Below, in pieces: positions 52,908 through 64,000 of a stretch of DNA of 64,000 bases. The position numbers were made by a program, and so were the translations under genes. The DNA comes from Faecalibacterium sp. I4-3-84 (lineage in GTDB: Bacteria > Bacillota > Clostridia > Oscillospirales > Ruminococcaceae). A model generated the notes under the pieces. The model was not told the origin of the DNA and made no database searches. It was given only the letters and a program-made list of their open reading frames with translations. Positions within the stretch are counted from its first letter, which is position 1, and each line of letters begins with the position of its first letter. The DNA lies in assembly GCF_023347255.1 (NCBI RefSeq), contig NZ_CP094466.1, forward strand, positions 124,001-188,000, given 5' to 3'.

Positions 52908-52983
52908 GCTACTGTGGCTCAGCTGGTAGAGCAGCTCACTCGTAATGAGCAGGTCGCCTGTTCGAATCAGGTCAGTAGCTCCA
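52908..52983 (+). tRNA. tRNA-Thr (anticodon CGT)
   Basis: Complete cloverleaf of 76 nt with encoded CCA. Acceptor GCTACTG/CAGTAGC, D arm GCTC/GAGC, anticodon stem GCTCA/TGAGC around loop CTCGTAA (anticodon CGT, reading ACG), T arm with TTCGAAT. The discriminator base is T. Confidence 0.96.
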
Positions 52984-53034: not shown

Positions 53035-53551
53035 TTAGTCTCGCAAGTTTTCGCAAAACCGCAGCATAAACCGCAACATCGCCCACAAAACAAGACAAAA
53101 TAAAACGCCCCGCAACACCATTTCATAGGGCGTTATGCGCATTTTTATGCTTTCTTTTGGACAGGCTCCTTGAGTTCACAATGCAGGTTTGTCAATGATG
53201 TGTTTCTGTGATGTTTGGTGTAGCAATTTAACTGTACCACAGAACGACTCATTCGTCTTTTTCACTTTGTAACACATCTATTGTAATCCCATACAGTTTT
53301 TATGGATCAATCCATGAAATTTTATTGATAATCCTTCATGGGAGTGGTAAAATATTTTTATATCTCTGTCATTCTGTGCCCCTTCGCGGTAGAGGGAGAG
53401 CGCAAAACAGAAAAGACGCAAAAATTGCGGCATCCTTTCCGTGGGTGGGTTTTACAGCGCACACTCTTGCGGGCGGTGATGTATGATCAGTAAGCCAAAG
53501 CAGCCAGCCGCAAAACGATGGCTGCCCAAGAAGTGTGAGGAGAAGGATCGG
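53035..53551. other. AT-rich gene-free stretch beside tRNA-Thr
   Basis: About 0.5 kb, clearly richer in A+T than its neighbours. It holds one inverted repeat (AACGCCC 53104-53110 / GGGCGTT 53128-53134), a minus-strand reading frame of only 35 codons (53035-53142; not called) and the promoter of the next operon. No recognisable integrase, direct repeat or RNA gene. Its position right after a tRNA makes it a possible old integration junction, but I see no att repeat. Confidence 0.5.
53302..53353 (+). promoter_or_regulatory. Promoter and possible operator of the binding-protein/kinase operon
   Basis: TTGATA (53325-53330), 17 nt, TAAAAT (53348-53353). The palindrome ATGGAT-CA-ATCCAT (53302-53315) lies just upstream of the -35, a plausible regulator site. 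The leader to the ATG is about 190 nt and contains a CCCCT/AGAGGG-type hairpin of unknown meaning. Confidence 0.6.
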
Positions 53552-55417
53552 ATGAAAACAAAAACATTGCGCCGCCTATTTTCCATGCTTGCGGCACTGG
53601 TGATGGGGCTATCCCTGCTCACCGGATGCAGCGGAAAAGATGCGGAACGAACACAGAAGCTGGAAGACGCTCAGACCATTCAGGTGTATCTGTGGAGCAC
53701 CAGCCTGTACGAAAACTATGCGCCCTATGTTCAGGCGCAGCTGCCGGACGTGAACATTGAATTCATCGTAGGCAACAACGATCTGGATTTTTACAAGTTT
53801 TTGCAGCAGAACGGCGGTCTGCCGGATATCATCACCTGCTGCCGCTTCTCGCTGCACGATGCGGCACCGTTGAAGGACAGCCTGATGAACCTTGCCATGA
53901 CCAATGAGGCGGGCGCTGTGTACAACACCTACCTCAACAGCTTCAAAAACGAGGATGGCAGTGTGAACTGGCTGCCGGTGTGCGCGGATGCCCACGGCTT
54001 TGTGGTCAACCGCAGCCTTTTTGAGCAGTACGATATTCCCCTGCCCACCGATTACGCAAGCTTTGCAGCGGCCTGTCAGGCTTTTGAAAAGATCGGCATC
54101 CGCGGCTTTACCGCCGATTACGCCTACGACTACACCTGCATGGAAACGCTGCAGGGGCTTTCCGCTGCCGAGCTTACCACCACCGCGGGACGCAAGTGGC
54201 GTACTGCCTACAGCGACCCCGCCAACACCGCACGGGTCGGTCTGGACGACACCGTGTGGCCGGGGGCATTTGAGCGGATGGAGCAGTTCATTCAGGATAC
54301 CCACCTTACGGCAGACGATCTTGCGTTGAATTACGACGATGTGACCGGGATGTTCCGGAACGGAGAAGTTGCCATGTACTTTGGCAGCTCTGCCGGCGTG
54401 AAGATGTTTCAGGATGAGGGCATCGACACCACCTTTTTGCCCTTCTTCAGCCAGAACGGCGAACAGTGGATCATGACCACCCCCTATTTCCAAGTTGCCC
54501 TGAACCGGGATCTGGAGCAGGACACTGCGCGCCGCGAAAAAGCCATGAAGGTGCTGAACGTCATGCTCTCCGAACAGGCGCAGAACCGCATCGTCTCGGA
54601 GGGGCAGGACGTACTGAGCTACAGCCAGAACGTCCCCCTGCGCCTGACCGAGTATCTGAAAGACGTGCGCAGCGTAGTGGAAGAAAACCACATGTATATC
54701 CGCATCGCCTCCAACGATTTCTTTGCCGTTTCCAAGGATGTGGTCTCCAAAATGATCGCAGGCGAGCTTACCGCTGCGCAGGCGTATCAGGCCTTCAATG
54801 CCAAGCTCCTTGCCGAAGAGGAGCCTGCCGACAACGAGACCGTGCTGACCTCCGGGAAGGCCTATTCCAACGTATTCCACGCAAACGGCGGCAGCGCTGC
54901 CTTCTCCGTGATGGCAAACACGCTGCGCGGCGTGTATGGCACCGATGTGCTGCTTGCCACCGCAAACAGCTTTACCGGCAGTGTGCTGCAGGCGGATTAT
55001 AACCAGAAAATGGCAGCTTCCATGATCATGCCGAACGGTCTGATGTCCCGCCAGCGCACCATGACCGGTGCGGAGCTGAAAGAGACCGTCCGCGCCTTTG
55101 TGGAAGGCTGCGAGGGCGGGTTTGTGCCCTTCAACCGCGGCTCTCTGCCGGTGGTCAGCGGCATTGCCGTGGAGGTAAAAGAGGCAAACGGCAGCTATAC
55201 CCTGACCGGCATCACCCGGAACGGTCAGCCGCTGGGGGATGGCGACACCGTTACCGTGACCTGCCTTGCAACGGAAAAGCAGATGGAAGCGCTGCTCGCG
55301 AGCGATAGCGGCACGTCTGCGGGCGAAGATGCGTGGGTAAAATCCACATGGACAGATTACGTTTCCGGCGGCAAGGCAGTGCTTGCAGAGCCTGAAAACT
55401 ACATGACACTGAGGTGA
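53552..55417 (+). CDS. Lipoprotein: solute-binding domain fused to 5'-nucleotidase-C-like domain
   Basis: 621-aa predicted lipoprotein (signal [20 protein letters not shown], lipobox LLTGC with C26). Residues about 40-420 look like an extracellular ABC-type (family 1) solute-binding protein: [20 protein letters not shown], repeated aromatic patches and a long two-lobe fold. Residues about 430-590 resemble the C-terminal, substrate-binding domain of 5'-nucleotidases ([17 protein letters not shown], then SGIAVEV); the catalytic metallophosphatase domain is absent. The ATG at 53552 follows GAGGAGAAGG. The next gene, a hybrid kinase, begins 5 nt after the stop, so a sensing role is likely. No transporter genes are adjacent. 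Confidence 0.8.
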
Positions 55418-55422
55418 GCGGG

Positions 55423-58371
55423 ATGGCAGACGAAAAGCACGAATCCAAACGCAGCTGCTATTCCCGGCACAAGTGGCTGCTTGCCGCCGCTGCCATCCTT
55501 CTTTTGGTCTTTCTGGCAGCCGGTTTCAGCGTCCGGTACATCTCGTTTGTGTCGCAGACCATCTATCAGGAAAGCACCTCGCATCTGGAAGAGGTACTGT
55601 ATAAATCCAATAGTATGCTGAAAGAGATGGTGCGCAAAAACCTGACCTATCTGCATCTGTACAACGGCTTTCTGAAAAGCACCTCGAATGAGGATGAAAT
55701 TCAGGCATATATCGAGGAAGCACAGCAGGCAACCGGATTTGTTGACTTCTACTTTCTTTCCTATGACGGCAACTACACGACCGTGACCGGGGAAACCGGC
55801 TACCTTGGCCTGCAGACCAATCTGGACGAAAAGCTCTCCGATGGCGAGGATATCGTCGTGAATACGGCGCTGCCCGGCAAAGCCCCGATGCTTGCGTTCA
55901 TCTGCCCCGAAACGCAGGGCAGCTACCGGGGCTTTGCCTACGATGCTGTTGCCATCACCTATTATAATGATGCTGTGCTGCGATTGCTGGACAACTCTGC
56001 TTTTCAGGGCAATGCCAGCAACTATGTGATCTACCCGGATGGGCGGGTGGTCATCGACAATTCCGTAAACCGCAAGGAAATCATTTACAACTTCATTGCG
56101 ATGCTGCGCGACCATTCCGACCTTTCTGAGGAACAGATTCTTGCCCTTTCGGATGATTTTGCGCAGGGCCGCAGCGGAAACCTGAGGGTCAAACTTGGCG
56201 ACATCAGTTATTATCTGGTCTACGAGAATACCGCGGTCCAGAACTGGACGATGGTGGGGCTTGTGCCGGTCAGCATCGTCAATGCCAGTCTGGATAAGCT
56301 GTGGTTCCACACGGTGCAGATCGTGGCGAGCATCGCCTTTGGCCTTGCTGTGCTGATCATCCTGCTGATCCTGCGCAGAAGCCATACGACCCTGCGCCGG
56401 AAGGACACTGAGATCCTGTACCGGGATGAGCTGTTCCAAAAGCTTTCGCTGAACGTGGACGACGTTTTCCTGATGCTGGACGCAAAAACCTCCAAGGTGG
56501 ATTATGTCAGCCCCAACGTCGAACGGCTGCTGGGCATCCCGTGGAAAGAAGTGCGGCAGGATGTCCATGTTCTGGCGAACCTGCACCCGAAAGACGACCC
56601 GGACCGTGACAAGAACTTTCTGGAGAGGCTTCACCGCGGGGAACAGCGCGAGTGGGATGCGGCGTATATGCATCAGGAGACAAAAGAGCTGCGCTGGTTC
56701 CACATCGTTGCCATGGGCAGCGATGTGGCAGGCAGGACAAAATATATCCTTGTCATGTCCGACCGCACCGCCGACAAACAGATAAACCAGGCGCTTTCGG
56801 ATGCCGTTGCAGCTGCCGAAACGGCCAACCGCGCCAAGAGCACCTTCCTTTCCAATATGTCCCACGACATCCGCACCCCCATGAACGCCATCATCGGCTT
56901 TACCACGCTGGCACTCAGCAACATTGACGATAAAGACCGGGTGAAGGATTATCTTGCCAAGACCCTCGCTTCCAGCAATCATCTGCTTTCCCTCATCAAC
57001 GATGTGCTGGATATGAGCCGTATCGAAAGCGGAAAGATCCATCTGGAAGAAGTGGAAGTCAACCTTTCGGATGTGCTGCACGACCTGAAAACCATCGTCA
57101 GCGGGCAGATCTACGCAAAGCAGCTGGAGCTTTATATGGATGCCATGGATGTGACCGATGAGGACGTCTACTGCGATAAGACCCGGCTGAATCAGGTACT
57201 GCTGAACCTGCTGTCCAACGCCATCAAGTTCACCCCGGCGGGCGGCACGGTCTCGGTGCGGGTGCGGCAGCTTGCCGGAGCGGTGCGCGGCTGCGGGCAG
57301 TACGAGTTCCGCGTCAAGGACAACGGCATCGGCATGAGCCAGGAGTTCGCCAAAAAGATCTTTGAGCCGTTTGAGCGGGAGCGCACCTCCACGGTAAGCC
57401 GGATCCAGGGCACCGGCCTTGGCATGGCTATTACCAAAAACATCGTGGATATGATGGGCGGCACCATCGAGGTGCAGACGGCGCAGGGCAAGGGCAGCGA
57501 GTTTATCATTCGTGTGCCGATGCGTGCGCAGGCCGAGCACCGTCCGGTGGAAAAGATCACCGAACTGGAAGGCCTGAAGGCACTGGTGGTTGATGACGAT
57601 TTCAACACCTGCGACAGCGTGACAAAGATGCTGGTCAAGGTGGGAATGCGTGCCGAGTGGACCCTTTCCGGCAAGGAAGCGGTGCTGCGTGCACGGCAGT
57701 CCATCGAGATGAGCGATGCTTACCATGCCTATATCATCGACTGGCGCTTGCCGGACATGAACGGCATCGAGGTCACCCGCCAGATCCGCAGCCTGAACGA
57801 TGATACGCCCATCATTATCCTGACCGCCTACGACTGGTCCGACATTGAGGTGGAGGCAAAGGCTGCCGGTGTGACCGCCTTCTGCTCCAAGCCCATGTTC
57901 ATATCCGACCTGCGCGAGACCCTGATGAACGCCATCGGACAGACACAGACGGATGCGGCGCAGGAGCTTCTGCCGGAAAAGAACACCAACTTCAAGGGCA
58001 GGCACATCCTGCTGGTAGAGGACAACGAGCTGAACCGTGAGATCGCGCAGGAGATCCTGTGCGAGTACGGCTTCCGGGTCGATACGGCGGAAAACGGTGC
58101 CGTGGCGGTGGAAAAGGTAAGCACTGCCGCACCGGGCAGCTATGATCTGGTGCTGATGGATGTGCAGATGCCGGTGATGGACGGCTATACCGCCACCCGG
58201 CAGATCCGCGCACTGGATGACCCTGCACTGGCAAAGATCCCGATCCTTGCCATGACTGCCAACGCATTCGATGAAGACCGCCGCAATGCCTTGGAAAGCG
58301 GCATGACCGGCTTTTTGTCCAAACCCATCGTGATCGGCGACCTTGTGCAGGAGCTGCGCAAAATTTTGTAA
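55423..58371 (+). CDS. Hybrid sensor histidine kinase (PAS, HisKA, HATPase, REC, REC)
   Basis: 982-aa membrane protein. TM1 about 18-38, a 250-aa extracellular sensor (Cache-like by size and position), TM2 about 297-318, PAS about 335-450, HisKA with H481 ([12 protein letters not shown]), HATPase (N599, [15 protein letters not shown]), REC1 with D773 and REC2 with D913. No Hpt domain, so phosphate must pass to a separate protein. The ATG at 55423 follows GAGGTGAG. It is paired with the binding lipoprotein upstream, which could present ligand to the extracellular domain, as in LuxP-LuxQ (inference). Confidence 0.9.
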
Positions 58372-58400
58372 CAAGCCGCCTGTCAGGCATAAAAAAAAAT

Positions 58401-58466
58401 AAAGCACCCGCAGCAATTTGCTCACCGGAGATTCAAAACCTCTGTGGCGTTTGCTGTGGGTGCTTT
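58401..58466. terminator. Bidirectional terminator between the two hybrid-kinase genes
   Basis: AAAGCACCCGCAGCAA (58401-58416) pairs, with one mismatch, with TTGCTGTGGGTGCTTT (58451-58466). A nine-base A run precedes it (T run on the minus strand) and TTTTGCTTTT follows on the plus strand, so it can stop both convergent transcripts. Confidence 0.8.
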
Positions 58467-58482
58467 TGCTTTTGGGTGCTGT

Positions 58483-61059
58483 TTATTTCAGTACATCTGC
58501 AAGGACCTGCAGCAGGTGCGGAATATCCAGCGGCTTTGCAATATGGCCGTTCATACCGGCCTGCAGTGCGTTCTGACGGTCTTCCTCAAAGGCATTTGCC
58601 GTCATTGCAAAGATGGGGATGCCAGCCTTTGCGGCATCCGGCAGCGCACGAATCTGCCGCGTTGCCTCGTAGCCGTCCATGTTGGGCATCTGGATGTCCA
58701 TGAGGATCAGGTCATACTGTCCGTCTGCCGCCTGCTTCATCTTCCGGACGGCGATCTCGCCATCCTCGGCAGATTCCACCTCAAAGCCCGCTTCCTTCAG
58801 GATCTCCACTGCGATCTCACGGTTCAGCTCGTTGTCCTCCACCAGCAGGATCTTTTTCCCTTTGAAGGCCTCCGCGTTCCGCTGCACCGGCCTGCAGTCA
58901 GGCTCTGCACCGAACGGCTCTGCCAGCACTCTGCGCAGCTCCGAGAGGAACAGCGGCTTTTCGCAGAAGGCGGTAACACCGGCAGCGCGAGCTTCCTCTT
59001 CAATATCGGCCCAGTCGTAGGCGGTCAGGATGATGATGGGGCAGCTTTTCCCAATCACCTTGCGGATCTGCCGCACGATCTCGATGCCGTTCATATCGGG
59101 GATCAGCCAGTCGATGATGTAAACGCTGAATTCATCCCCCTGCTCCATGGCATACCGGGTGCGGATCACCGCTTCCCTGCCGGAGATCGTCCACTCCGGC
59201 CGCATCCCGATCTTGGACAGCATGGTGCTGACGCTCAGGCAGGTGTCGGTATCGTCGTCCGCCACCAGTGCCCGCAGCCCTTCCAGCTGCGGGAGCTGCC
59301 TGAGCTCCACCTTTTGTCCGCTGAGCGCAAAGCAGAGATTCACGATGAACTCGCTGCCCTTGCCTGGCTCGCTCTCAATGGCGATGGTGCCGCCCATCAG
59401 GTCCACAATGTTCTTGGTGATGGACATGCCGAGGCCGGTGCCCTGAATGCCGCTGACGGTGGAGTTTTCCTCACGGGTGAACTCCTCAAAGATGTGCTTC
59501 TGGAATTCCTCGCTCATGCCGATGCCGTTGTCCTTGATGCGGAACTCATAGCAGGCCCGGCCCGCAGGCGCACCGTTTTTCTCAGCAATGCGAATGCTGA
59601 TCATGCCGCCTGTGGGAGTGAACTTGATGGCATTGGACAAAATGTTCAGCAGGATCTGGTTCAGCCGCAGCGGGTCGGTGATGATATCCTCGTTCTCCAC
59701 ATCCATGGTATCAATAAAAAGCGACAGCCGCTTTGCCGAAACATTGGGCTGAATGATGGAGCGCACATCGTGGACGAGGTCCGGCAGATGCACCGCTTTT
59801 TCCTCGATCTTTACCTTTCCGCTCTCGATGCGGCTCATATCCAGCACATCATTGATGAGGGAAAGCAGATGCTGGCTGGAGGTGGAGATCTTTTTGAGGT
59901 AGTCCAGCACCTGTTCCCTATTGTCGATATGGGTCGCAGCCAGCGAGGTGAAGCCGATGATGGCGTTCATGGGGGTGCGGATATCGTGGCTCATATTGAA
60001 CAGGAACTCCCGTTTGGCGCGGTTTGCCGCCCCCTCGTGCTGAAGCGCGATCTCCAGCTTGCGGTTCTGTTCCTCCAGCTGGGTCTGGTACTTCCTCTCC
60101 TGCTCTTTTTTCTGCAGCTCCATCTCCTGCACGGAGCGGCGGCGCAGCAGCTGAAGGATCATTACAAGCAGGATGTAGCCGACCAGAACCGTCAGGATCA
60201 GCAAAAGCGACTCCCGGAAGATTATTTTTTCATCCGTGTACGCATAGAGATCGAAGGATCTGCCATGGCAGAACATCCCGAAATAGCAGCCGGAGCCGTT
60301 CCAGTCCCGGGTATGGGTCAGCTTCTCTGCGGCCCCGGCTTTGCGAATTCCCTGCGCCAGCGGACTGCCTGCAACATCCTGCCCAATCAGCTCCGGGCGG
60401 TTTGCGGCAACGACCTGATTGTTCTGCACGATGAACAGCGTGCCGCTGGTTTCTGCCGGGTAGCCATCCAGTATGCTCTGGATGGACAGCGCCGTTTCCT
60501 CCACAAATTCCGCCGGGGTGTACCGGTAGGCAAGCAGGAGCAGCTCTGTGCTTTCTGCCCGGTGCGCCGCAACATCCACAGCAGAGCCATCTTCCAGCAG
60601 GACGCGCTTCACATAGGTCTTTCGCGGGTAAGATAAAACGTCCAGAACAGCGTCATTTTTCAGCCGGTCGCCAAACCGGTCATAGCCGATGCCGTTGGTC
60701 GTGGACTCGCACCGGAGCGTGCCATCCGGTCCCAGAACCGAAACGCCGGTGAGCCAGAGCTTTTCTGCCTGCCTGTTCAGGCACTGTGGGTCGGAGAGAT
60801 CGAGGGCAGTGTCCTCTGCCAGCTGATGGACTGCGACCGCCGTGCGGCGGAGTGCCTTTGCCGTGATGGTATCGTTGTGCTTTTCAAAGCTGGTGGACTG
60901 GGATTTGACAAACTCAAGGGTCTGGCAAAAGCGTTCCTCTGCTGTGCGCATTGCCCGCCAGCTGGAGAAAAAAGCAACACCGGCCATCAAGAGCACGCCG
61001 ATGATCAGATAGGCTGTCCATATCCTTTTATCCGGGGTGGTTCTGTTTTTACGCGCCAA
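58483..61059 (-). CDS. Hybrid sensor histidine kinase (HisKA, HATPase, REC, REC)
   Basis: 858-aa paralogue of the convergent kinase, but without PAS. TM1 about 14-33, extracellular domain of about 250 aa, TM2 about 285-305, a coiled coil ([20 protein letters not shown]), HisKA with H358, HATPase, REC1 with D650 and REC2 with D788; no Hpt. The TTG at 61059 is chosen since GGAGG lies 9 nt upstream and it overlaps the binding-protein end by 11 nt; ATG further inside would remove TM1. Last gene of a leftward operon with the family 3 binding lipoprotein and the cyclic-di-GMP protein. Confidence 0.88.
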
Positions 61060-61876
61060 CGGTGTCCACCTCCAGATACTGCGAAGCATTTTCAAGGTAT
61101 CGGCCAACGATCCGCTCCAGCGTGCCATCCGCGCGCATCTGCGCAAGGGTATCGGTCAGCTGGCTGTCCAGCCCGCGGGTGTCGTTCTTGGCAAAGGCGA
61201 CGCCCAGCCCGGTGACCAGCAGCGGTTCCTCCAAAATGCGGAACTCCACATCATTGTCCTTCATGTATTGCAGGATGGCCATCTCATGGGCGGCGATGGC
61301 ATCCACATAGCCGCAGGCCAGCATTGCATACTGCACGCTGCGGTTTTCGATGCTGAGCACCTCCACCGTCTGCGGGATGCGCGGGTCGGAGCCGCTGAGA
61401 AAGATCTCCTCCGGCTTGCCGGTGCTCTGCACGGCGATGGTCTTGCCGGTAAGGTCGCTGAGGAATCGGATGCTGCTGTCGGCATCCACCGCAACCACCT
61501 GACGGCTCACCATGTAAGGCCCCGCCCAGCGGTATACCTCTTCGCGTCCATCCATGGAAAAGCAGCCCCAGATGCAGTCGATGGCGCCGCTTTCCACAAG
61601 ATTTGTTTTTTGTTCCCAATCGATCGTTTCAAACCGGGGAGCATACCCCATGCGGCGGAACGCCTCGGTGGCGATCTCCACATCGATCCCGGTGGGAACA
61701 CCGTCATTGTTCAGATAGATATAAGGTGGATAGGTGTCACTTCCCACAACGATTTGTGCAAGACCGCTGTCTTTCGCTTCCTTTTCTCCGCAGGAAGTCA
61801 GACTGCTTACGGCAGCAGCTGCCGCCAGCAGCGTGCATCCGTTCAGGAATGCACGGCGTGAGATTCTGTGTTTCAT
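61049..61876 (-). CDS. Family 3 solute-binding lipoprotein
   Basis: 275-aa amino-acid-type binding protein (SBP_bac_3). The signal [17 protein letters not shown] carries a twin-arginine-like SRRAFL motif and the lipobox LTSC (C29). The mature domain reads [37 protein letters not shown], and CIWGCFSM in the binding cleft. It binds small ligands outside the membrane; ligand unknown. It overlaps the hybrid-kinase start by 11 nt and no permease or ATPase is near, so it probably works as a sensor for that kinase. Confidence 0.87.
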
Positions 61877-61915
61877 TCGGGCTTTTTATACTCCTGTTTT
61901 GATTGCATCCGCAGC

Positions 61916-63652
61916 TCAGTTGTGCTGCTGTAATTCTTCTTTCAGGGCAGCTTGGATATCCGTCAGGCATTGCAGCAGAAGCGGGTTGAATGCTCCGCAC
62001 TCACCGTTCAGGATCATCTGCACGGCTTTTTCGTGGGAGAAGGCTTTTTTATAGCAGCGTTCGCTGGTCAGCGCATCGTATACATCGGCCAGCGAAACCA
62101 GTTGTGCGCTGATGGGAATTTCATCGTCCTTCAGCCCATCCGGGTAGCCGCGCCCATCCCAGCGTTCGTGGTGCCAGCGGGCGATCTCGTAGGCGGTTTG
62201 CAGCAACGGCTGCTCGGCAAATTCATCCAGATCATGCAGCATCCCGGCTCCAAGCATACTGTGGGTCTTAATGATTTCAAATTCCTCCGGGGCCAGTTTT
62301 CCGGGTTTATTAAGAATTTTTTCGTCAATGCCAATTTTTCCGATGTCATGCAAGGCGGAGGCCAGCGGGATCATATCCTGCTGTTCCGCAGAGATCGAGT
62401 ACCTGTTGCTGACCCCCAATAGGCAGTGGAGCAGCATTTCTGTGATGATACGAATGTGCCGCACATGGGCACCGCTTTCGCCGTTGCGGAATTCTACGAT
62501 ATGGCTCAGTACACCCACCAGCATATCCGTATTATTCTCACGGGCGCGGATCTGGTCAGAGACCATCTGCACCAGCCGCCGCTGCTTGGCGTACAGCTTG
62601 ATGGTGTTGGTCACGCGGCGGTATACGATGCGTGCATCGAAGGGGCGGTTGACATAATCACTTGCGCCCAGTTCGTAGGACTTCCGAATTGCAGCGTCGG
62701 AGTCCTCGCTGGAGATCATAATGACTGGGGTATCCTCGATGGTGTGGTTGACATTCATGGCTTTCAGCACTTCAAAGCCGTTCATGACCGGCATATTGAT
62801 GTCCAGCAGCACCAGTGCAATGTTTCCGGCTTCTGCCTGCAATTTTTCCATGCATTCCTGCCCGTTTTCTGCTTCCAGAATATGGTAGCTATCTCCTAAG
62901 ATCTCTGCCAGTATCATGCGGTTCATTGCAGAGTCGTCCACAAGCAGGATCTGGGATTTTTCCTGCAAAAGCGTTTCCCGTGTGGTCAGGCTATGCCCCG
63001 GAACCTCCACCATGACGGCATTTTTGCGGCACTTTGCCTGATACATCAGCCAATCTGCACGACGAACGATGTTTTTCATAGGGTCGGCGAGGGACTGTAT
63101 CGTTCCGCCAATGCTCAGCGAGATGCGGAAATGCGAACAGCCGGGTACGGATGCCATCTGCACGGCAGTGCGGATCTGTTCCAGTTTGGTTTGCAGGAAG
63201 TCTCCCGGAATGCCGGGCAGGACCAATAGAAACTCATCCCCGCCGTAGCGGATGAGCAGGTCCGACTCCCGGATGCAGGACTGAATGGCGTTTGCTGCCG
63301 TTTTCAGTGCCATGTCCCCGGCGTAATGCCCATAGGTGTCGTTACAGATCTTGAAATTGTCCACATCCAGCAGTGCGACACCCGCCGGGCCGATGGTCTT
63401 GCGGACGACCTCTTCGTAATAGCGGCGGTTGTAAGCACCTGTCAGAGAATCCCGATAGAGTTCTTCTTTGAATGCCCGCTCCCGTGCAGCACGCTGCTTG
63501 GTGGTTTCGTCCATCAGTGTTTTCTGATTTTCGGTCAATTGTTTCAGCGTTTGCTCCGCTGCGGCAAGAGCGGCTTCCTGTTGATGAAGTTTTTCCAACA
63601 GCTGCTGCTCACGCGCTTTGTAATATTCCTCGATCTCGGAAAGTGTATTCAC
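61916..63652 (-). CDS. GGDEF-REC-HD-GYP cyclic-di-GMP turnover protein
   Basis: 578-aa cytoplasmic protein: coiled coil (about 5-65), GGDEF diguanylate cyclase (YGGDEF 136-141 with an inhibitory-site RESD at 128-131), receiver domain (D239/D240, phospho-acceptor D284) and HD-GYP phosphodiesterase (H435-D436 in HDIGKIGID, HHERWDGRGYP 494-504). It appears able both to make and to break cyclic di-GMP under control of phosphorylation. The receiver's conserved Lys is an Arg (R336 in VNRPF). GTG start with AGGAGAAG upstream. It lies 40 nt before the family 3 lipoprotein gene and may be the target of the kinases nearby (inference). Confidence 0.92.
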   Translation of the reverse strand: MNTLSEIEEYYKAREQQLLEKLHQQEAALAAAEQTLKQLTENQKTLMDETTKQRAARERAFKEELYRDSLTGAYNRRYYEEVVRKTIGPAGVALLDVDNFKICNDTYGHYAGDMALKTAANAIQSCIRESDLLIRYGGDEFLLVLPGIPGDFLQTKLEQIRTAVQMASVPGCSHFRISLSIGGTIQSLADPMKNIVRRADWLMYQAKCRKNAVMVEVPGHSLTTRETLLQEKSQILLVDDSAMNRMILAEILGDSYHILEAENGQECMEKLQAEAGNIALVLLDINMPVMNGFEVLKAMNVNHTIEDTPVIMISSEDSDAAIRKSYELGASDYVNRPFDARIVYRRVTNTIKLYAKQRRLVQMVSDQIRARENNTDMLVGVLSHIVEFRNGESGAHVRHIRIITEMLLHCLLGVSNRYSISAEQQDMIPLASALHDIGKIGIDEKILNKPGKLAPEEFEIIKTHSMLGAGMLHDLDEFAEQPLLQTAYEIARWHHERWDGRGYPDGLKDDEIPISAQLVSLADVYDALTSERCYKKAFSHEKAVQMILNGECGAFNPLLLQCLTDIQAALKEELQQHN

Positions 63653-63671
63653 GTTCTAATCTTCTCCTGCA

Positions 63672-64000
63672 TCATTTACATCGTTTGTGTGCTTCCTCTG
63701 CGGAAACGCGCTTGTCCATGCCGGCTTCCCTGCTCTTCTGCATATCCTCAAGGAAGGCATTGGCGGTCATGGCAAGGGTGGGAATGATCCTGCTCAGCGG
63801 GTCAACAATGTTCTTGGTGATGGCCATACCAAGGCCGGTGCCCTGCACCTTGTTGGTGCCGGAGCGCTCCTCGCGGGTAAAGGGGTCAAAAAGGGTCTTC
63901 TGGTAGGCCTCGCTCATGCCAATGCCGTCATCCTGCACCACAAAGCGGTATCGGGCGTAGTGCTCGTTTCGGGGCAGCTCGTCCACCTCAAACCGGATAT
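63672..64000 (-). pseudogene. Hybrid histidine kinase remnant with internal deletion, continues past edge
   Basis: The visible end codes for the HATPase part ([27 protein letters not shown]) joined in frame, at about 63800, to the tail of a receiver domain ([11 protein letters not shown]). Against the convergent kinase, residue 676 is joined to residue 934, so about 257 residues are missing: the end of HATPase, REC1 and most of REC2 with its phospho-acceptor. The C terminus (DKRVSAEEAHKRCK) is also unusual. The start lies beyond 64000. It may be a dead gene or a shortened kinase with altered function. It is 19 nt before the GGDEF gene. Confidence 0.75.

Follow-up and report, generated by a model that had tools for sequence, protein, structure and literature searches.

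What do solute-binding lipoproteins do when their genes adjoin those of hybrid histidine kinases and no transporter is encoded with them? The question is raised by five genes toward the right end of the window, by which we mean the whole 64,000-nucleotide stretch of Faecalibacterium sp. I4-3-84 DNA analyzed here, from a genome of 3.12 Mb in a single contig. A binding lipoprotein (SBP1) and a hybrid kinase (HK1) are encoded on the plus strand after a tRNA-Thr; convergent with them on the minus strand lie the genes for a second hybrid kinase (HK2), a second lipoprotein (SBP3) and GRH, a GGDEF-REC-HD-GYP protein. We propose that two such surface receptor pairs, and once three, feed one phosphorelay that sets cyclic di-GMP (c-di-GMP), a reading to which we assign a probability of roughly 0.6. 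The five genes, read by Pfam and sequence inspection, are the following.

53552..55417, plus strand: SBP1 lipoprotein (Pfam SBP_bac_8/SBP_bac_1 on frame 53483-55414)
55414..58371, plus strand: HK1 hybrid kinase (Pfam HisKA-HATPase-REC-REC; likely start ATG 55423, or GTG 55414)
58483..61059, minus strand: HK2 membrane hybrid kinase (Pfam HisKA-HATPase-REC-REC on frame 58486-61146)
61049..61876, minus strand: SBP3 lipoprotein (Pfam SBP_bac_3 on frame 61052-61876)
61916..63652, minus strand: GRH, GGDEF-REC-HD-GYP (Pfam GGDEF-REC-HD on frame 61919-63652)

Lipoprotein and kinase genes are paired without transporter genes

Between SBP1 and HK1 lie 5 bp if HK1 starts at ATG 55423; with GTG 55414 as its start the two overlap by 4 bp. 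The TTG start of HK2 at about 61059, behind GGAGGT, overlaps the stop of SBP3 by 11 bp. The lipoprotein and kinase of each pair are therefore probably co-translated. The gap from GRH to SBP3 is 39 bp. The first-pass annotation of this DNA had placed GRH in one operon of the island. That annotation had also stated that both lipoprotein genes abut or overlap kinase genes, that no ABC permease or ATPase accompanies them and that neither kinase has an Hpt domain, and each of these statements held. No ABC ATPase or permease was detected among the five proteins by Pfam and a motif scan, and no Hpt model in Pfam matched HK1 or HK2. Pfam found no DNA-binding domain in the five proteins, so there is no adjacent DNA-binding response regulator.

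The same arrangement was found again across species, beyond chance. We surveyed the best 80 of 265 stretches from named genomes that matched SBP1; the loci were not dereplicated, and neighboring genes were read on stop-to-stop frames (A+T-rich relatives include L094 and L122). A kinase gene lay directly downstream of SBP1 in 59 of the 80 loci and directly upstream in 3, giving 62 with an adjacent kinase. The script found no kinase in 13, although one of these (L176) has an overlapping kinase, and 5 loci met a contig end. Permease matches occurred in 2 of the 80 loci and within 3 kb in none, so the regular association with permeases that the first-pass annotation had named as evidence against its proposal was not observed. 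SBP3 was present in 14 loci, and Hpt, GGDEF or HD-GYP in 30. Tandem SBP3-HK2 and SBP1-HK1 pairs were seen in Blautia, Coprococcus, Fusicatenibacter and others, and in two loci (L133 and L137; Blautia and Eubacterium ramulus) REC-HD-GYP, SBP1-HK1 and SBP3-HK2 all run in one direction. SBP1 relatives with no adjacent kinase, beside or near GGDEF/HD-GYP genes, were also found (L149 and L164) and possibly represent a shorter wiring.

HK1 is organized as transmembrane segment, dCACHE sensor, transmembrane segment, weak PAS, HisKA, HATPase, REC and REC. The model of its sensor has a two-module PDC fold of the dCACHE type (pLDDT 83), which Foldseek matched to mmHK1S-Z3 at E 3.1e-9 and about as well to dCACHE structures of chemoreceptors; by itself, the score against Pfam dCache_1 falls short of the cutoff. 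HK2 has an uncharacterised extracytoplasmic sensor followed by HisKA, HATPase, REC and REC. The phosphorylated His, the ATPase boxes and the receiver Asp and Lys are intact in both kinases by motif search, which caught the Asp of only the first receiver in each; that of the second (LMDxQMP) was located by eye.

In Lachnospiraceae-type loci the SBP1 binding domain is 67-77% identical to that of the window and the HK1 sensor only 46-54%; likewise, SBP3 is about 60% identical to its relatives and the HK2 sensor about 27%. Binding domains are thus kept better than kinase sensors, the opposite of what is expected for a freely varying ligand binder.

A stand-alone Hpt protein accompanies the kinases

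The first-pass annotation had anticipated a separate phosphotransfer protein, and a whole-genome search returned exactly one Hpt match, above the cutoff: a stand-alone protein of 115 residues at C1:1029542-1029886, about 0.85 Mb away. Its ortholog in a sister species (G171; 78% identical) is encoded directly upstream of SBP1, such that Hpt, SBP1 and HK1 run in one direction, convergent with HK2, SBP3, GRH, HK3 and SBPx. In another genome (G322) the Hpt gene faces HK2, SBP3, GRH, HK3 and SBPx. It lies beside a GGDEF-REC-HD-GYP gene in G308 and G297, and next to a GGDEF-REC gene truncated where the locus ends in G303 and G310.

Kinases of the HK1/HK2 type, taken at E 1e-200 or better, were present in 12 of 31 genomes of the genus, with G322 having HK2 only and G309 only the C-terminal half of HK1. 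All 12 carriers have the Hpt ortholog (at least 48% identity, E 1.2e-30 or better) and none of the 19 non-carriers does, the best match there being 38% identical. The chance of such a perfect split at random is 7e-9, a figure that overstates the strength of the association because the species are related and some genomes incomplete. By gene presence and linkage, then, this Hpt appears to be associated with the kinases. The family was surveyed through 297 genomes, with REC-HD-GYP taken at E 1e-60 or better and at most four candidates scored per genome. REC-HD-GYP was found in 101 genomes, Hpt in 111 and both in 73 (odds ratio 10.8), and 59 of 134 Hpt matches lay within 2 kb of a REC-HD-GYP match. 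Such co-occurrence and linkage are what a relay from kinase through Hpt to REC-HD-GYP would predict.

GRH carries the motifs of a complete c-di-GMP enzyme

The GGDEF motif, the RxxD I-site, the HD motif and HHExxDGxGYP are all complete in GRH, and by these motifs the protein is predicted to be an intact c-di-GMP enzyme with a synthesis and a breakdown half. Its receiver has the Asp, with Arg (RPFD) in place of the conserved Lys. The same Arg occurs in 51 of 63 REC-HD-GYP receivers sampled among relatives (45 of 57 once duplicates were removed), the other 12 being 8 with Lys and 4 without the motif; the substitution therefore looks like a trait of the REC-HD-GYP subfamily and not like decay. 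GRH starts about 65 residues ahead of its GGDEF domain, no sensor domain was matched, and the copy in G171 likewise gave no match to a periplasmic domain. In some relatives (L127:18334-20139 and L186:18339-20150) a hydrophobic stretch at the N terminus of GRH hints at membrane anchoring; the window copy as called lacks this stretch. Of the 12 genomes with HK2, 10 have an uninterrupted GRH gene directly ahead of SBP3-HK2; the exceptions are G320, with a remnant, and G321, where the gene is interrupted (L291). A search for c-di-GMP-I riboswitches gave no match in the genome and likewise none in controls, and is hence uninformative.

SBP3, whose gene follows GRH, has a twin-arginine-like signal (TIGR01409, 18.8 bits against a cutoff of 16.7) and, by eye, the lipobox LTSC. 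The third lipoprotein (L088:6027-7808) has a weak twin-arginine-type signal under the Pfam cutoff. Signals of this type in the two proteins would suggest export in the folded state.

The proposed relay and its alternatives

We propose that each lipoprotein would bind an extracellular solute, probably oligosaccharide-like for SBP1 and amino-acid-like for SBP3, and would as a co-receptor touch the extracytoplasmic sensor of the kinase whose gene adjoins its own. This kinase would phosphorylate its own His and pass the phosphoryl group to its own receivers, then to the stand-alone Hpt and from there to the receiver of GRH, and perhaps to other REC-HD-GYP proteins of the genome. Phosphorylation of the GRH receiver would shift the balance between the GGDEF and HD-GYP halves. 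Lipoprotein-kinase binding, the direction of phosphate flow, the responding half of GRH, the ligands and the c-di-GMP output are what we infer in this scheme. If it is right, a chain of six proteins leads from surface co-receptors to a named c-di-GMP enzyme by way of a candidate Hpt. The first-pass annotation had envisaged a phosphorelay module controlling c-di-GMP. The pairing without transporters, the linkage of kinase, Hpt and REC-HD-GYP and the intact GRH motifs speak for that view, but the case for linking SBP1-HK1 to GRH is less strong than for SBP3-HK2, because the former makes up a convergent unit of its own and in several species is found away from GRH.

Several observations weigh against the relay. 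The Hpt gene is unlinked to the locus in this genome, and 6 of the 12 carriers have no domain of the set closer to it than 1.5 kb. The species compared are related, so the split into 12 and 19 does not amount to 31 events independent of one another, and the genomes of some non-carriers are incomplete. Across the family 75 of the 134 Hpt matches have no listed REC-HD-GYP match within 2 kb. Other Hpt proteins adjoin REC-HD-GYP genes of their own in 7 loci of non-carriers (L322-L328); such relays are therefore independent of these receptors and broader than them. Two more GRH-like REC-HD-GYP proteins in the genome (C1:877286 and C1:750715) could be the true targets of Hpt, and the local GRH copy of the same-species genome G320 is reduced to a remnant. 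A PilZ protein was not found in the genome by a search that gave matches in 5 of 14 control genomes.

One alternative is that the main target of the kinases and Hpt is a transcription-type response regulator or other REC-HD-GYP proteins, with GRH a passenger of the SBP3-HK2 operon that has its own input. SBP1-HK1 does occur with no GRH nearby in several Faecalibacterium species (L126, L128, L293, L298 and L300), in G321 a diverged pair of SBP3 and kinase genes (L290) lacks an adjacent GRH, and both the damaged GRH copies of G320 and G321 and the Arg at the expected receiver Lys would fit a passenger. We nevertheless consider this explanation unlikely, given that an uninterrupted GRH directly precedes SBP3-HK2 in 10 of 12 genomes, that the Arg is common to most such receivers (51 of 63) and that Hpt and REC-HD-GYP are linked across the family. 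It is quite improbable, in our judgment, that the lipoproteins are transport binding proteins for permeases encoded elsewhere and that their adjacency to kinases is regulatory bookkeeping. ABC components shared between unlinked genes are known in Gram-positive bacteria, and distant SBP1 homologs do adjoin ABC permease-like genes (L100 and L117). Among the closer relatives, however, a permease lies within 3 kb in 0 of 80 loci and a kinase is adjacent in 62, and SBP1 has an extra C-terminal domain, described below. The slightest chance goes to a system that is decaying in this strain and no longer signals as a whole. The remnants of HK3 and of a third lipoprotein would be in keeping with it, as would the interrupted HK1 and HK2 and the GRH remnant of G320, the split SBP1 of F. 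longum and the loss of most of SBP1-HK1 in G322; yet in the window strain the reading frames of SBP1, HK1, HK2, SBP3, GRH and Hpt are all open, and those catalytic motifs that were checked are intact.

SBP1 has an additional C-terminal domain

SBP1 starts at ATG 53552, is 621 residues long and has the lipobox LTGC. In its predicted structure (pLDDT 89) the first 400 or so residues resemble oligosaccharide-binding proteins (Z 33.1, 3.6 A over 367 residues, with 3quf); the comparison covered the binding domain, residues 27-414. The ligand is thus probably oligosaccharide-like. Polyamine sensing was considered by analogy with NspS and because in G171 the unit adjoins an operon that by eye looks polyamine-synthesis-like. 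This reading is not supported: no such operon was seen next to the unit in the other species, and the fold of SBP1 is that of sugar-binding proteins.

The C-terminal 190 residues or so, overlooked by the first-pass annotation, gave no match to PF02872, the 5'-nucleotidase C-terminal domain, in the window protein. PF02872 was matched by 20 of 34 aligned SBP1-type proteins (E<=1), and its cutoff of 23.6 bits was passed by those of L182, L187, L188, L194, L195 and L203, with a top score of 46.8 and E values of 4e-12 to 7e-12 in L187, L188 and L195. The match is weak in closer relatives (L173, L164 and L141), and none was obtained in L129, L155 and L185 at the limits used. Profiles of the close and distant C-terminal sets matched with E 1.6e-61, a value from a forced global comparison of sets that had been aligned together beforehand. 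A search of PDB sequences with the C-terminal profile returned nothing below E 0.1. As seen through its homologs, SBP1 would combine a family-1 oligosaccharide-type binding fold with a fused 5_nucleotid_C-type domain at about residues 450-621. No metallophosphatase family is listed for the SBP1-type proteins checked, and a second binding site is for this reason more likely than catalysis.

The SBP1-HK1 unit behaves like a cassette

The remaining features in and beyond the window are these.

52908..52983, plus strand: tRNA-Thr(CGT), a local neighbor only
53325..53353, plus strand: promoter-like site TTGATA-17-TAAAAT upstream of SBP1, within the conserved unit (left border about 53297)
58394..58473, no strand: inverted repeat between convergent HK1 and HK2, arms of 23 nt, 83%
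63672..64000, minus strand, on past the window to L002:5211: remnant of HK3, a third hybrid kinase (Pfam and relatives)
L002:5239-5462, beyond the HK3 remnant: remnant of a third lipoprotein

Homology to other Faecalibacterium species begins at 53296-53298 in six loci (L126, L127, L128, L178, L293 and L304) whose genes further upstream differ, and later, at 53476-53538, in L186, L298, L300 and L129. Where the second unit is absent, the homology ends at about 58369 or 58467. Since the common border lies to its left, the promoter-like site falls inside the conserved unit; one such site was found against 0.9 expected in shuffled sequences, which is weak by itself. Near the inverted repeat, 2 terminator-like sites were found on the plus strand against 0.4 expected, and the repeat is a possible two-way terminator for HK1 and HK2. 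The SBP1-HK1 unit thus appears to include a promoter-like site and a possible terminator.

Going by the genes upstream, as assessed by eye, the unit occupies at least 7 neighborhoods among the 12 carrier genomes. In G320 the segment from about 53202 to 58364 is inverted at the same tRNA-Thr site. A left border that is constant at different sites in six loci, together with this inversion, suggests that SBP1-HK1 behaves as a cassette. In view of these neighborhoods, the earlier description of an island beside tRNA-Thr is misleading. Among relatives that site is occupied only in the same-species G320, and no unit is present at the nth locus of G307, G298, G311 and G321. Integration at tRNA-Thr as a general rule was rejected, as the units sit elsewhere in other species. 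Three of 10 relatives' loci do have tRNA genes, namely a cluster about 0.4 kb after HK1 (L128), a tRNA-Val about 0.9 kb before SBP1 (L129) and a tRNA-Gly about 4 kb away (L127); the other 7 have none, and the units may have some preference for tRNA regions. Phase-variable inversion through long inverted repeats or a dedicated invertase is unsupported, as no long inverted repeat spans the G320 breakpoints.

Loss and rearrangement were also seen. Most of SBP1-HK1 was lost through an internal deletion in G322, and HK1 and HK2 are interrupted in G320. In G309 an apparent chimeric kinase (L302:4548-7787) joins the N-terminal part of a neighboring kinase to the core and receivers of HK1, and SBP1 and the HK1 sensor are gone. 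SBP1 of F. longum is split into two frames (L178:9911-11834).

In 10 genomes outside Faecalibacterium and Gemmiger, Blautia included, MutS shares 50-53% identity with its counterpart in the window genome (70% in Gemmiger). SBP1 in these genomes is 64-75% identical; in 9 of the 10 loci the best kinase core is 80-86% and the HK1 sensor 46-54% identical. The corresponding values for three Blautia genomes are 50-52% for MutS, 69-72% for SBP1, 85-86% for the best kinase core and 50-52% for the HK1 sensor. Within the genus SBP1 shows no such excess (G171: MutS 92%, SBP1 87%). Transfer of SBP1-HK1 between families is plausible on these numbers, which are suggestive and not proof: the HK1 sensor identity is low, and selection could therefore explain the high identity of SBP1 and the kinase core instead.

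The cassette behavior would be a natural experiment on attaching new inputs to a phosphorelay. A tentative and rather doubtful extension is that gut Clostridia share a plug-in mode of sensing, in which movable promoter-receptor cassettes are gained, inverted, fused or lost and report to one resident Hpt controlling c-di-GMP, so that the c-di-GMP inputs of a strain would be set by the cassettes it carries. The SBP1 class would then integrate two extracellular cues, an oligosaccharide bound by the binding fold and a nucleoside-like ligand bound by the nucleotidase-type domain.

Relation to known systems

The first-pass annotation had called such pairs little described in monoderm bacteria, which is too strong, as XylFII-LytS and CuaDSR are published cases from Clostridia. 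According to PMC10384115, CuaD is a sugar-binding lipoprotein and co-receptor of CuaS in the monoderm Ruminiclostridium cellulolyticum, CuaS is an ordinary class-I kinase whose partner regulator controls transport genes, and XylFII-LytS is cited as an orphan sugar-binding lipoprotein with a membrane histidine kinase. Kinases activated by solute-binding proteins number about 10 characterized examples according to PMC9602780, and are also treated in PMC11113362. The locus described here resembles XylFII-LytS and CuaDSR in placing a binding lipoprotein beside a sensor kinase, with no permease genes among the five. It differs from them in its two-REC hybrid kinases, separate Hpt, c-di-GMP enzyme and fused C-terminal domain, and in having no transporter and no DNA-binding response regulator among the five genes. 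The host of XylFII-LytS is reportedly Clostridium beijerinckii, and LytS, too, is said to be a class-I kinase whose partner regulator acts on transport genes.

In NspS-MbaA of Vibrio cholerae and Sinorhizobium a binding protein is reported to control a c-di-GMP enzyme, as is proposed for our locus. NspS is said to act directly on MbaA, a membrane GGDEF-EAL protein; here a kinase and Hpt are proposed to stand in between, degradation would be by HD-GYP, and no sensor domain was matched in GRH. LuxP-LuxQ and TorT-TorS reportedly combine a binding co-receptor, a hybrid kinase and a separate or fused Hpt. HK1 scores far below both NCBIfam equivalog cutoffs (LuxQ, 314.5 against 1200; TorS, 346.4 against 676.5). 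Response regulators of the PleD and RpfG types join a receiver to GGDEF or HD-GYP, whereas in GRH both flank one receiver; its score against the PleD model is 166.7 bits (cutoff 474). Unlike in 5'-nucleotidases, the PF02872-type domain seen in SBP1 homologs is fused to a binding protein, with no metallophosphatase family listed.

New here are the combination of the known pairing of binding proteins and kinases with control of c-di-GMP by binding proteins, the fusion, seen through homologs, of a sugar-type binding protein with a domain of the 5'-nucleotidase C-terminal type, the dCACHE sensor of HK1 and the cassette behavior of SBP1-HK1. The combination was not described among the literature matches listed, which comprise titles and the starts of abstracts, with subscription journals mostly outside their scope. 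A literature search on Faecalibacterium, c-di-GMP and histidine kinase found no paper with any of these terms in title or abstract, and inputs to c-di-GMP in non-pathogenic gut Clostridia accordingly seem hardly known.

Sequences beyond the window

The first-pass annotation had ended the island at 64000. Remnants of the third lipoprotein-kinase pair run to about 64.46 kb in window numbering and are followed by recombinase genes; the third kinase and third lipoprotein are uninterrupted in the sister species G171 and in the same-species G320. Just past the window, a region of about 10 kb (L002:6048-16095) contains, with names given by eye, a serine recombinase, a RelE/DinJ-like toxin-antitoxin pair, a methyltransferase fragment, a reverse transcriptase-like gene and an integrase fragment. 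Similar short coding stretches at L002:5991 and L002:16170 may mark the ends of this mobile-type region.

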